This document shows, one piece after another, positions 16,633 to 33,754 of a stretch of 64,000 bases of DNA; positions within the stretch are counted from its first letter, which is position 1; every line of letters starts with the position of its first letter. The position numbers and the translations under genes were made by a program. The notes beneath the pieces were generated by a model. That model was not told where the DNA came from. It searched no databases and was given only the letters and a program-made list of their open reading frames with translations. Where the stretch lies: positions 280,924-344,923 of the forward strand of contig JACRJL010000003.1 of assembly GCA_016215445.1 (NCBI GenBank). Direction: 5' to 3'. Source of the DNA: Candidatus Roizmanbacteria bacterium (GTDB taxonomy: Bacteria > Patescibacteriota > Microgenomatia > UBA1406 > GWC2-37-13).

Positions 16633-17220
16633 TTATTTCAAATACCTTCCTATAAATATCATTAACCAAAAGAAGATGATAAACATGTAGGTAATTTCGA
16701 AGACGCCGTTAAAGTTGTTAGTCGAAATAAATAAGAAAATCGTCGCTAACTGGACTAATAGCAGATTATTTGTCAAAAATTTAAAATCTTCATTTTTAGT
16801 CAATCTGGCAAACAAGAATTCAGACAGTGTCCAGAAAAAAAATAATATATAGACGATTGCTAAGTGAATATAATAAAACTGGTTAGAGGGAAAAAAGCCG
16901 AGGAGTCCGAAAGAAAGAACCGCAATTAACCAGAAAATGGCTGTTGGCGAATAGACAGGAAGTTTAAAATGTTGAAAAACATAAAAAGTAAAGCTCAAGT
17001 CGAGAAAGCTTTTAATAATAAAGAGGAGATTAAAAAAAGACAGTTGATTTGGATTCAGGAAATAACTCATCTGAGAGATCGTAAATTGGGAAAAGCTAAA
17101 ATTGGGTATTTTACTGCTAAGGTAAAAGGCAGACCCTAAAAAAAACAGAATTGATAAAATAGCATTATATTTGAATATCTCTATACGGTTTTTCTTTTCT
17201 TTTTGATTGTCTGATTCCAT
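16633..17220 (-). CDS. Six-helix membrane protein, possibly DUF998-like
   Basis: 195 residues with six hydrophobic segments and a short charged N-terminus. The FTISQMSYFLNPNQLSFFNL loop vaguely recalls DUF998 membrane proteins, but the match is weak. It is last in the minus-strand cluster after a NUDIX gene. A TATAAT box (17233-17228) lies 7 nt before ATG 17220, so it may also have its own leaderless transcript. Function unknown. Confidence 0.65.
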   Translation of the reverse strand: MESDNQKEKKNRIEIFKYNAILSILFFLGSAFYLSSKIPNFSFSQFTISQMSYFLNPNQLSFFNLLFIIKSFLDLSFTFYVFQHFKLPVYSPTAIFWLIAVLSFGLLGFFPSNQFYYIHLAIVYILFFFWTLSEFLFARLTKNEDFKFLTNNLLLVQLATIFLFISTNNFNGVFEITYMFIIFFWLMIFIGRYLK

Positions 17221-17227
17221 GTAAGAA

Positions 17228-17233
17228 ATTATA
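17228..17233 (-). promoter_or_regulatory. -10 box (TATAAT) 7 nt before the start at 17220
   Basis: Consensus TATAAT on the minus strand, overlapping the last bases of the upstream NUDIX gene. The spacing predicts a leaderless message for the six-helix membrane protein. Confidence 0.55.
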
Positions 17234-17654
17234 GCTTTTTAAGAATATTTTCGAAAGCCTCTTTGTCGGATTTATAGTCAAGAGTTTTTCTGACTTCGTC
17301 AGTTGGAACGAATTTAGCGTCCATCATCTCCCAATCGTGATCTTTTGGATCTCCATTTTGATATTCCATTAAAAAGTAAAAAACGGTTTTTTTAATATGA
17401 TCACCAGCCCAGCGATATTGATAATGAGTCTCAACAGGTTTTTCATTGATAATTTTTGCTTTAATGCCGCCTTCTTCTTCAACTTCTCTTATTGCTGCAG
17501 TCTCCATCGATTCATTACTGTCTTTGTCACCGACAAGTCCTTTTGGAAATACCCAGCCTTTATGTTGTGAGTGTTGAGTAATCAACCATAGTATCTGGCT
17601 AGCTTCTTTTTTAAAAACAATTCCGCCCGCCGAAGTTTGATTAATTATTTTCAT
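17229..17654 (-). CDS. NUDIX hydrolase
   Basis: 141 residues from ATG 17654 (MKIINQTSAGGIVF); another ATG two codons earlier at 17660 is possible. The Nudix box is complete: GDKDSNESMETAAIREVEEE then GG. The SAGGIVFKKE opening and WVFPKGLV stretch resemble diadenosine-polyphosphate or diphosphoinositol-polyphosphate hydrolases of the Ap4A type. It overlaps the end of the VKOR-DHODH gene by up to 20 bp and is the third gene of that operon. The substrate is not certain. Confidence 0.88.
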   Translation of the reverse strand: MKIINQTSAGGIVFKKEASQILWLITQHSQHKGWVFPKGLVGDKDSNESMETAAIREVEEEGGIKAKIINEKPVETHYQYRWAGDHIKKTVFYFLMEYQNGDPKDHDWEMMDAKFVPTDEVRKTLDYKSDKEAFENILKKL

Positions 17655-19212
17655 AGCCAACTACCTGACTAATATTATTAAATCCATCTTTTTTAAGAAG
17701 ATCTATTAGTTCCAAATTGATTTGTGATACAAGCTGCGGTCCTTGGAAAATCATTCCAGTAATTAGTTGAACTAGTGAAGCGCCGAGTTTAATTTTTTTA
17801 TATGCATCTTCAGCTGAAAATATTCCTCCACAACCAATGATAACCAGTCTGCTCTTATATTTTTTGTAAGCAAGTTTTATTAACTCATTTGATCTTTTTT
17901 CTGTTGGTTTACCTGAAAAATTGCCGACTTTAAATTTTTTGACTTCAGCAGGTATTAAAGAAGGGTCTTTTCTGTTTTTTAAAAGATTACCGAATATTAC
18001 TCCTTTGATTGATTTGTGTTTAACTATTATTTCAAGCATTGAAATTACTTCAGAGTTAGTTTTTTCAATCGGCATTTTTATGTAAACTGGTTTTTTCAAT
18101 TTTAATTTGTCAACGGAAAAGAGTAGAAAGTCTAGATTATTAGGCGGATAGAAACTAATATTCTTGGCGTGGACAAGATTAGGGCAGGAAATATTTAATT
18201 CATAATAACTGTTTTTGATACCTGATTTTTCGAAGATATTAAAAGTGTTTATAACGTCTTTTACAGCTTCTTGAATAGTCTTGATATTTTCCGAGTGCGT
18301 CATACCGATGCTGACGCCAACGGGAATTTTAAAATGAAGTTTTTTTAATTGCTGTGAGATAATGACGGCTCCTTTGTTTTTAAACCCTTTATTGACCATT
18401 AAAGATCTTGATTTAATCAATCTTCCCAAGCGGGGATGGGGGTTGCCTTCGTAGGGAAGGTTTGTGATTGTTCCCACCGACTGGAAGCCGAAGTTCAAAA
18501 AATAAAGGGTTTGTGTCAGATTGGCATTATAATCAAATCCGGCAGCCAAGCCGACAGGGGAGTCAAAGTTTATATCAGAGATCTTTTGATGCAAAGTGTG
18601 ATCTTTGTAAATAATTAGTCCGGAGGCAAATTTGCTTAGAGGGAATTTTCCTATAAGTTCTCCAGTGAAGACCATAATATTATGGATGACTTCAGGATAA
18701 AGGAGAAAAAAAATCCACTTGATAAAATTCTGGTAGGAGAAAGCAAAAATTGAAAAAGCCAGTTCTAGTCTTTCTTTTTTTAAATTAAGAAAAACAATTA
18801 GTCCTAATGTAAAGCTGATTAAAGCAGATAAGGTGCAGTATATACAGATGCTTTTGATAATAACTAATTGGATGTACATAAAATAGAAAGAAGCAACTAC
18901 GCCAATAATTGATTGGATAATAATCCAATAGCGGTAGACCTTTTTTTTATAGATCAAAGCTCCGAGAATTCCTAAAGTTAGAAGCCCATAATGAAAAAGT
19001 CCGATGACAGCCAGTGGGACTCCGAACATAACAGAGTAAGGACTTTGCAAAACTTTACCACAGTCAGAAAGAATTGGTAGAAAACGGTTAATTGTGCAAG
19101 GTGGGAGAACGTTATTAAAATGTTCCCAAGTGAGATAGGCCGAATCAATCAGTCCTAATATTGATAAAAAAATTAATAAAAGCATTTTATATCCTGAGTT
19201 TATTCGCTTCAA
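17641..19212 (-). CDS. VKOR-dihydroorotate dehydrogenase fusion protein
   Basis: 523 residues. Residues about 8-145 are a vitamin K epoxide reductase domain: four to five membrane helices, loop cysteines Cys39 and Cys51, the SPYSVMFGVPLAVIG stretch and active-site Cys123-Ile-Tyr-Cys126. After a linker (150-212) that still resembles the membrane-associating helices of class 2 enzymes, residues 213-520 form a DHODH barrel: SPVGLAAGFDYNAN, GFQSVGTIT, GNPHPRLGRL, NKGFKN, NFSGKP and IIGCGGIFSAEDA. The catalytic position reads NISCPN (Cys343), as in class 1 DHODH; class 2 normally has Ser. The fusion could pass electrons from dihydroorotate through quinone to disulfide exchange, or simply share one quinone site. 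It lies between two NUDIX genes with overlapping ends. Confidence 0.9.
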   Translation of the reverse strand: MKRINSGYKMLLLIFLSILGLIDSAYLTWEHFNNVLPPCTINRFLPILSDCGKVLQSPYSVMFGVPLAVIGLFHYGLLTLGILGALIYKKKVYRYWIIIQSIIGVVASFYFMYIQLVIIKSICIYCTLSALISFTLGLIVFLNLKKERLELAFSIFAFSYQNFIKWIFFLLYPEVIHNIMVFTGELIGKFPLSKFASGLIIYKDHTLHQKISDINFDSPVGLAAGFDYNANLTQTLYFLNFGFQSVGTITNLPYEGNPHPRLGRLIKSRSLMVNKGFKNKGAVIISQQLKKLHFKIPVGVSIGMTHSENIKTIQEAVKDVINTFNIFEKSGIKNSYYELNISCPNLVHAKNISFYPPNNLDFLLFSVDKLKLKKPVYIKMPIEKTNSEVISMLEIIVKHKSIKGVIFGNLLKNRKDPSLIPAEVKKFKVGNFSGKPTEKRSNELIKLAYKKYKSRLVIIGCGGIFSAEDAYKKIKLGASLVQLITGMIFQGPQLVSQINLELIDLLKKDGFNNISQVVGYENN

Positions 19213-19606
19213 CGATCATTTCAATCGTATGAGGTAAAACTTTTAATTTAGAAGCCTCTTCTAGAGTAAACCAACCATATTCTTCAGATTCCTCGTTTAA
19301 AATTATTTCTTGATTGTAGTCCATTAGTGAGCACAAGAATAAAATAAAAACCCCCTGCCAGTTGCGCCGCGTATCTGTAAATGTTTTTGGAATAAGGATT
19401 GCACTGTGGATTTCTACTCCGAGTTCTTCTTTAATCTCTCTTTTTAGAGCTGTTTCGGAGTTTTCGTCTTTTTCTATTCCACCTCCAGGAAGATGCCAGA
19501 CAAATGGAGCATAGTCTACGTCTTCGGGATCCATCTTTACTCTCTTGGTCAAGAGATATTTATTTTCTTTTTTTATGGCAGCAATCGCCACCTGTTGGAT
19601 TCTCAT
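19187..19606 (-). CDS. NUDIX hydrolase
   Basis: 139 residues with a full Nudix box (GGIEKDENSETALKREIKEE then LGV). It is first in the minus-strand operon and overlaps the VKOR-DHODH start by 26 bp. The A of its ATG at 19606 is the last base of the encoded CCA of tRNA-Ser, so there is no room for a ribosome binding site; processing of a joint transcript would leave a leaderless or startless mRNA. The next in-frame candidate is a GTG five codons in. Substrate unknown. Confidence 0.86.
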   Translation of the reverse strand: MRIQQVAIAAIKKENKYLLTKRVKMDPEDVDYAPFVWHLPGGGIEKDENSETALKREIKEELGVEIHSAILIPKTFTDTRRNWQGVFILFLCSLMDYNQEIILNEESEEYGWFTLEEASKLKVLPHTIEMIVEANKLRI

Positions 19607-32131: not shown

Positions 32132-32137
32132 ATAATA

Positions 32138-33754
32138 ATGATTATTCTTATATCGTTTTCTTTTTTAGCTGGGATAGTGACCATTTTGTCTCCCTGCATT
32201 TTGCCGATTCTTCCCGTGGTTTTGTCAGGAGTAGTTGGAGAAGGAAAAAAAAGACCTTTGGGAATAGTGTCGGGTTTTATTTTGAGTTTTACTTTCTTTA
32301 CTTTGTTATTGTCAGCGATCGTTAAACAGATTGGTATCTCCGCTGATGTTTTAAGAAACATCTCCGTTTTTGTAATCTTCGGTTTTGGTTTAAGTATGCT
32401 CGTTCCGAGTCTCAAGATTATTATGGAAAGGTTTTTTTCCAGACTATCGGGTAATGTTTCGACCAATAATAAGGGGGGCGGTTTTTTGGGCGGCTTATTG
32501 ATTGGGTTGAGTTTGGGATTAATTTGGACTCCTTGCGTCGGACCGATATTGGCTTCAATAATTACTTTAGCCGCTTCGAATACGGTCAATAGCGCAACTG
32601 TTCTAATTACTTTTGCTTATTCTTTGGGGACAGCTATTCCTATGCTTTTAATTATGCAAGGAGGAAAAAGTCTTATCAATAAGGTTCCGTGGCTTTTGCC
32701 CAATGCAGGAAAAATCCAAAGAGCATTCGGTGTTTTAATGATGTTAACGGCATTGGCGATTTACTTTAACGTAGACAGAAAATTTCAAACATATATTTTG
32801 GAGAAATTTCCTAATTACGGGGTTGGTTTGACGAAAATAGAGGATAACCAATCCGTCAAAGAGCAGTTGAAGAAATTAAAATCAGAAAATGAAAAAGATT
32901 TACTAAGTAATCTAAAAAATAGTTTTTATCCAGTGGCGCCAGAGTTGATTAAAGGTGGGCAGTGGTTTAACAGCCAACCCTTGACAATATCTTCCTTAAA
33001 AGGCAAGGTTATTCTTGTCGATTTTTGGACCTATACTTGTATCAACTGTATTCGTACTCTTCCATATCTTAAATCTTGGTATGAAAAATACAAAGACAAA
33101 GGATTAGTGATAATAGGCGTTCATACTCCCGAATTTGAATTCGAGAAGAATCCTGATAACGTTGCCAAAGCTATTAAGGATTTTTCCATAAAATATCCAA
33201 TCATGCAGGATAACGATTATGCTACTTGGCGCGCCTACAATAATCACTACTGGCCGGCGAAGTATTTTATTGACAGGGACGGAAAAATCAGATCGAGTCA
33301 TTTTGGCGAAGGAGAATATGACGAATCAGAAAAACTTATTCAAGAGTTATTGAAAGAGATTGGAAAGTTAAAGGAGGATATGGTTATTGATAATCCTACT
33401 TACAATGTCGAAGCACGGACTCCGGAAACTTATTTGGGTTATAACCGAAGGATTGACGATGGTAATTTGACTTATTCCGGCTCGTGGAAGATAATGGAAG
33501 AGTTGGCTCTTCCAAGTAAAGGTGCTGGTCTCGAGTTTAATTTTGAAGCAAAAAATGTTTTCTTGGTGATGGGGTCGAAAAATAAAATTCCTGGAAAAGT
33601 GAAAATATACTTGGATGAAAAATTTATTGAGGAAATTGAAATCAACAGTTACAGATTATATGATTTGATTAAATTATCACAACCTGGTAAACATATACTA
33701 AGACTGGAGTTTTTAGACAGTAATTTGGAATTATATGCTTTTACCTTCGGATAA
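32138..33754 (+). CDS. DipZ-like CcdA-thioredoxin-CBM-like fusion protein
   Basis: 538 residues in three parts. Residues 1-230 form a CcdA/DsbD membrane domain with cysteines in SPCILPILP and TPCVGPILA. Residues about 265-415 form a TlpA/ResA-type thioredoxin domain with WTYTCINCIRTLPYL. The last 130 residues are a beta-rich domain as in mycobacterial DipZ. The membrane part would carry reducing power from cytoplasmic thioredoxin to the outer domain, which then reduces disulfides. It opposes the oxidising VKOR domain at 17641. The start lies close to a -10 box with no ribosome binding site. Confidence 0.9.
   Translation: MIILISFSFLAGIVTILSPCILPILPVVLSGVVGEGKKRPLGIVSGFILSFTFFTLLLSAIVKQIGISADVLRNISVFVIFGFGLSMLVPSLKIIMERFFSRLSGNVSTNNKGGGFLGGLLIGLSLGLIWTPCVGPILASIITLAASNTVNSATVLITFAYSLGTAIPMLLIMQGGKSLINKVPWLLPNAGKIQRAFGVLMMLTALAIYFNVDRKFQTYILEKFPNYGVGLTKIEDNQSVKEQLKKLKSENEKDLLSNLKNSFYPVAPELIKGGQWFNSQPLTISSLKGKVILVDFWTYTCINCIRTLPYLKSWYEKYKDKGLVIIGVHTPEFEFEKNPDNVAKAIKDFSIKYPIMQDNDYATWRAYNNHYWPAKYFIDRDGKIRSSHFGEGEYDESEKLIQELLKEIGKLKEDMVIDNPTYNVEARTPETYLGYNRRIDDGNLTYSGSWKIMEELALPSKGAGLEFNFEAKNVFLVMGSKNKIPGKVKIYLDEKFIEEIEINSYRLYDLIKLSQPGKHILRLEFLDSNLELYAFTFG

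Follow-up and report, generated by a model that had tools for sequence, protein, structure and literature searches.

The 64,000-nucleotide stretch of DNA analysed here (the window) carries a gene whose single open frame encodes a four-cysteine VKOR domain followed by a class-2-type dihydroorotate dehydrogenase (DHODH) fold, and Pfam matches to both domains bear out the initial annotation of this layout. We tentatively read the product, with a probability of roughly 0.4, as one membrane enzyme whose two redox heads are linked by quinone, with a barrel that is likely not the cell's dihydroorotate dehydrogenase. The substrate pocket of the barrel and its distribution suggest a job different from that of DHODH, possibly electron exchange with VKOR via quinone. 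The features of the gene and its neighbours are listed in Table 1.

The fusion lies on the minus strand, which the earlier description had not specified, and has an AGGA close 5' of its ATG at 19185. The TTG at 19212 chosen originally adds nine residues, and the cysteines then numbered 39, 51, 123, 126 and 343 are Cys30, 42, 114, 117 and 334 from the ATG. In the TTG numbering, the Pfam domains cover residues 12-139 (VKOR, E 8.8e-26) and 207-506 (DHO_dh, E 1.5e-49) of the same uninterrupted frame, and the motifs GLAAGFDYNAN, GNPHPRLGRL and NISCPN are all present as described. The gene is single-copy in its own genome, a CPR assembly of 940 kb in 3 contigs that is 97% complete. The upstream NUDIX hydrolase gene is a probable operon mate, and the run NUDIX, fusion, NUDIX, membrane protein looks like an operon, as the genes share a strand, the first NUDIX gene adjoins the fusion 5', the second overlaps it and the membrane protein gene follows. 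The window also encodes a second thiol system acting outside the cytoplasm, a DipZ-like protein (DsbD_TM, AhpC/TSA and Thioredoxin_10) at 32132-33751 on the plus strand.

Table 1. Features of the VKOR-DHODH-like fusion and adjoining genes (window positions; residues numbered from the ATG).
Feature	Position	Strand	Details
VKOR-DHODH-like fusion gene	17641..19185	-	514 aa, ATG start, stop included; one open frame
VKOR domain, residues 3-130, four TM helices	18796..19179	-	PF07884 E 8.8e-26; hydropathy; AlphaFold helices 2-24, 58-79, 82-110, 115-134
Cys30, loop cysteine	19096..19098	-	Invariant, 36/36 aligned fusions
Cys42, loop cysteine	19060..19062	-	Invariant, 36/36 aligned fusions
Cys114-x2-Cys117, VKOR CxxC	18835..18846	-	Invariant, 36/36 aligned fusions
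Junction, residues 118-160	18706..18834	-	TM4 continues into long helix, no flexible linker; helices 115-134, 136-159 (AlphaFold)
Class-2-type membrane helical region, residues 136-188	18622..18780	-	Helices 136-159, 164-180, 183-188; aligns to E. coli PyrD N-terminus
His168, quinone site (E. coli PyrD His19)	18682..18684	-	Invariant in clade wherever region present
DHO_dh FMN barrel, residues 198-497	17695..18594	-	PF01180 E 1.5e-49; Foldseek TMt 0.94 to Mycobacterium DHODH 8ofw
Tyr219, at E. coli active-site Lys66 position	18529..18531	-	Tyr in all 36 aligned fused sequences and the fusion clade's unfused members; Lys elsewhere
Arg255, quinone site (E. coli Arg102)	18421..18423	-	100% conserved
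Val264-Asn265-Lys266, orotate carboxylate loop (E. coli Asn111-Arg112-Met113)	18388..18396	-	N111 to V/I in 92/92 clade sequences; M113 to K in fusion clade
Cys334 in NISCPN, catalytic-base position (E. coli Ser175)	18184..18186	-	Cys in 92/92 clade members, fused or not
NUDIX hydrolase, directly upstream	19187..19606	-	PF00293 E 6.8e-17; stop adjoins fusion ATG
NUDIX hydrolase, directly downstream	17229..17660	-	PF00293 E 3.9e-16; start overlaps fusion; relatives in 12 neighbouring loci
Membrane protein, same gene run	16633..17220	-	No Pfam match; relatives in 10 loci

Conservation of the fusion across CPR genomes, as anticipated at the outset, was confirmed: full-length fusions are found in about 35 of the 72 genomes of the family, at 47-71% identity, and also in three other families (G362, G074, G079/L069), whose fusions branch deepest in the same clade. 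The records concerned are labelled Roizmanbacteria, Microgenomates, Gottesmanbacteria, Levyibacteriota, Woesebacteria and WWE3, the named close relatives being mostly Candidatus Roizmanbacteria. In a few relatives the gene is broken into two frames (L051/G016, G003), as would be expected if an assembly or frameshift error had joined two genes, but the full-length frame is intact in dozens of independent assemblies; we rejected an artefact, whose chance we regard as negligible. Neither the frameshift or stop nor the always-separate homologues that had been raised as possible objections materialised. In the barrel tree every fusion falls within one clade (98% support) and several unrelated fusion events were rejected; as this clade also holds 13 unfused members, one ancient fusion followed by losses of VKOR is the simplest history. 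Unfused homologues of the barrel are widespread in CPR and DPANN. In another CPR family, members of this DHODH-like clade instead carry a PAP2 membrane phosphatase at their N-terminus (L155:1498-3150, PF01569 E 1.8e-19; L159:1498-3150; L166:1009-2676), and a contig labelled Bifidobacteriaceae (L110) holds a CPR-type clade member on a long branch, possibly through transfer or a binning error.

The VKOR half scores 91.1 bits with PF07884 (cut-off 27.5), and both AlphaFold and hydropathy give the four-helix transmembrane bundle of this family. The conserved Ser of VKOR (Ser48) is invariant in 36/36 aligned fusions. By family membership this half is predicted to be a quinone-dependent thiol oxidase, and the positive charges that follow TM2 and TM4 in the hydropathy analysis would place its cysteines outside and the barrel on the cytoplasmic side.

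The two halves are predicted to be joined rigidly through a helix, in a conserved join. The CxxC lies 51 residues from the quinone-site His168 in 30 of 32 sequences, despite a junction whose sequence shows only about 30-40% conservation (about 30% identity over residues 122-150); unlike the junction, the Cys loop and one barrel segment are free to vary in length. In the AlphaFold model (69-sequence alignment; pLDDT 95.5, pTM 0.92) TM4 passes almost without a break into the class 2 hairpin, and the membrane-associating helices reported earlier appear there as predicted helices 136-159 and 164-180.

By profile the barrel half is a class 2 protein. NCBIfam TIGR01036 (quinone DHODH) matches at 225.8 bits against a cut-off of 200, class 2 profiles give 225-268 bits versus about 69-72 bits for class 1, and the DHODH barrel fold is combined with N-terminal membrane helices, whereas class 1 proteins have no membrane-binding N-terminal domain and match a class 1 profile best. 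Both His19 and Arg102 of the E. coli quinone site are kept, and on these two residues the barrel probably binds quinone; the position of E. coli Tyr318 is Ile. The pyrimidine-ring contacts Asn172, Asn177, Asn246 and Lys217 are also kept.

The remainder of the pocket departs from class 2. Positions K66, N111, T178 and T247 (E. coli numbering), which from established knowledge of the DHODH family we take to be orotate contacts, are Y, V, L and L in the fusion. Human equivalents Lys100, Asn145 and Ser215 are listed as active-site residues (PMC12197698). Thr247 is replaced by Leu in nearly all of the 92 CPR/DPANN clade sequences, while K66Y, F101G and M113K mark the fusion-bearing clade and are not present outside it. 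The new Lys266 could partly stand in for Lys66, and altered binding of a pyrimidine acid is possible. In place of the class 2 catalytic Ser175 stands the class 1 Cys of NISCPN, as had been noticed, but this Cys is not a special mark of the fusion and was rejected as such, for all 92 homologues have it and most of these are unfused. The initial annotation had missed both its presence in unfused homologues and the Tyr for Lys66 in GFDYNAN.

These features have to be weighed against an unlikely alternative in which the barrel would be a true class-2-like DHODH that serves pyrimidine synthesis and shares with VKOR a quinone pool that both reduce. In its own genome the fusion is the sole DHO_dh-family protein beside carAB, pyrB, pyrC, pyrE and pyrF; the gene is commoner in genomes that have both pyrB and pyrE (18/41 vs 4/31, p 0.005); and the score above the TIGR01036 cut-off and the intact ring contacts also fit. 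Against it, the four orotate contacts are replaced, whereas the class-1B DHODHs of the same lineages retain Asn at the N111 position. Eleven of the 41 gene-bearing genomes are without both pyrB and pyrE, a count affected by MAG incompleteness, and could therefore not use orotate. Another DHODH, class-1B or class-1A-like, is present in 25 of the 41 (incomplete MAGs and relatedness affect these counts), and where the locus was read (L116-L119, L121, L135) it sits in or beside the pyr genes. Only 6 of the 41 have pyr genes without another DHODH, and in three of these six, ours among them, a gene for a TfrA/FrdA-like protein lies among the pyr genes or close to them. Across the 41 genomes the gene thus does not occur with and complete de novo pyrimidine synthesis as a class 2 gene would; it is not part of the pyr operon, and its presence depends little on pyr genes or other DHODHs. 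The genome's own pyr operon has a fumarate-reductase-like FrdAB pair instead, G007 and G028 manage without any DHO_dh-family protein, and two quinone reducers would need a quinol oxidase, with COX1 and CydA not found in 72 genomes. The orotate contacts and the two genome counts fail to support the proposed role in pyrimidine synthesis and, judged from sequence and gene content, the barrel most probably does not act as the dihydroorotate dehydrogenase of the cell.

The pyr loci show several other arrangements. The operon of this genome (L115:10041-12366 = G000:C2:168040-170365; also L134 and L131) encodes a TfrA/FrdA-like flavoprotein, a FrdB-like iron-sulfur protein and an AspA-like lyase, and contains no DHODH. 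Among pyr-positive genomes, a TfrA/FrdA-like protein occurs in six without a class 1 DHODH versus one with it (p 7e-4), and G007 and G028 have pyrB with the same kind of FrdA. The FrdAB of the pyr operon is possibly a non-orthologous dihydroorotate dehydrogenase. Elsewhere the pyr operon holds a divergent class-1-like DHODH of 358-379 aa (L117:4400-5473, L135:4570-5706), which adjoins an AspA-like lyase in L117; this suggests that the enzyme is linked to fumarate and has a dedicated source of it. G014, G036 and G054 may encode DHODH-PyrE fusions of about 636 aa. The pyr operon (L115:15024-16991) contains three tandem pyrE-like genes, as do G027 and G028, of which the third is divergent and possibly inactive as a phosphoribosyltransferase.

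Homologues of the barrel accompany VKOR even where the two are separate. Among 381 Patescibacteria genomes, incomplete MAGs included and phylogeny ignored, a clear VKOR is found in 62 of the 84 that bear the clade versus 94 of the 297 others, and with unfused genomes only, under the same limits, in 57/79 versus 94/297 (odds ratio 5.6, p 1.6e-10); a clear VKOR was not seen in 22 of the 84 clade-bearing genomes, incomplete MAGs among them. Separate clade and VKOR genes lie 0.8-9 kb apart in G075, G375, G298, G307 and G234, the two genes of G075 being the pair 0.8 kb apart. The neighbours of unfused relatives include nothing conserved and no pyr genes, with NUDIX and membrane-protein neighbours in near relatives only. 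This distribution bears on the possibility that two independent membrane enzymes were joined for anchoring or co-expression only and exchange no electrons. Unfused clade members are common, other relatives are fused to PAP2 and VKOR has been lost from several unfused proteins within the fusion clade, all of which would fit, but the length-locked rigid junction, the co-occurrence with VKOR when unfused and the residue changes specific to the fusion clade make anchoring alone decidedly unlikely.

VKOR and DsbB need their quinone to be re-oxidised by another component. Neither COX1 (haem-copper) nor CydA (bd) oxidases were found in the 72 family genomes, in searches that included positive controls, which supports the earlier suggestion of a cell without a respiratory chain. 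The sole UbiA protein of our genome is a decaprenyl-phosphate phosphoribosyltransferase and not a quinone prenyltransferase, and quinone biosynthesis through a universal UbiA protein was rejected for this genome. Two quinone reducers without a quinol oxidase would stall, from which we infer that one half should re-oxidise quinol; other quinol-oxidising routes, such as a fumarate reductase with a membrane anchor or an alternative oxidase, are possible. The link of both halves to quinone proposed at the start thus stands as a quinone-linked architecture, and the shared pool serving a pyrimidine DHODH probably does not.

In the two-headed enzyme that we favour, quinone or quinol would move between the VKOR and FMN sites, and one half would re-oxidise what the other reduces, with no need for a terminal oxidase. 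Less firmly, VKOR may draw electrons from exported protein thiols via a DsbA/MdbA-like partner and the FMN barrel may hand quinol electrons to a cytoplasmic acceptor, perhaps a pyrimidine-like one. This direction, from thiol through VKOR, quinone and FMN to a cytosolic acceptor, is favoured because bacterial VKOR works oxidatively, as has been proposed for CPR, where VKOR is linked to MdbA-like oxidoreductases (PMC6744442). Taken to its full extent, the scheme is a self-contained transmembrane relay for oxidative folding without respiration, in which VKOR would reduce scavenged quinone and a covalently joined, repurposed DHODH barrel would take the place of the terminal oxidase by re-oxidising it with an organic acceptor in the cytosol; we hold this fuller form to be rather doubtful. 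The favoured reading draws on the conserved fusion, the length-locked junction, the invariant cysteines and the predicted rigid join, on quinone-site residues kept while orotate contacts change, and on the co-occurrence of the clade with VKOR when unfused, the lack of COX1 and CydA, the non-quinone UbiA and the independence from pyr genes. The related clade fused to PAP2 counts against it, since membrane anchoring alone might be selected, as do the Ile at the Tyr318 position, the clade-bearing genomes without a clear VKOR and the unfused fusion-clade members that have lost VKOR.

Electrons could also run the other way, from a reduced cytosolic substrate through FMN and quinone into a VKOR working backwards, which would reduce extracytoplasmic disulfides and export reducing power. 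A dihydropyrimidine-level donor (about -0.25 V) could pass electrons to quinone as well as to a DsbA-type disulfide (about -0.12 V), and vertebrate VKOR couples thiols and quinones by the same chemistry. The reverse direction is a serious but less likely alternative, as bacterial VKOR, the CPR proposal included, works oxidatively (PMC6744442) and the DsbD/DipZ-like protein of the window could already fill a reductive role.

No published description of a VKOR-DHODH layout was found in the literature searched, in agreement with the initial impression. The fusion resembles class 2 PyrD in fold, N-terminal membrane hairpin, His19 and Arg102, FMN-barrel motifs and ring-contact Asn residues, but differs in the Cys for the catalytic Ser, the replaced Lys66, Asn111, Thr178 and Thr247, the VKOR domain and a gene that is not in the pyr operon and shows little dependence on the pathway. 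With class 1 DHODHs (1A and 1B) it shares the catalytic-base Cys; those enzymes are soluble and have no membrane hairpin, share only about 21-28% identity with the fusion, and coexist with it in many of these genomes. Like the VKOR-thioredoxin/DsbA fusions of cyanobacteria, plants and Clostridium it combines a VKOR core (loop Cys pair, CxxC, conserved Ser) with a C-terminal redox domain, although their partner is a thioredoxin-type thiol oxidoreductase and here it is an FMN barrel that follows four TM helices, probably on the cytoplasmic side. The CPR VKOR fam000898, linked to the MdbA-like fam000318, is likewise presumed to serve oxidative folding of exported proteins; there VKOR is a separate gene, with dihydroorotate dehydrogenase and quinone not mentioned (PMC6744442), whereas here it is fused.

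A clostridial study met the same puzzle of how VKOR quinone is re-oxidised without a respiratory chain, and suggested quinones from neighbours (PMC12453122). A VKOR joined to a quinone-site flavin enzyme, whose homologue travels with VKOR when unfused, is a concrete candidate for how VKOR works without a respiratory chain in CPR and other fermenters. A widespread CPR/DPANN clade that the curated TIGR01036 recognises as PyrD may not be PyrD.
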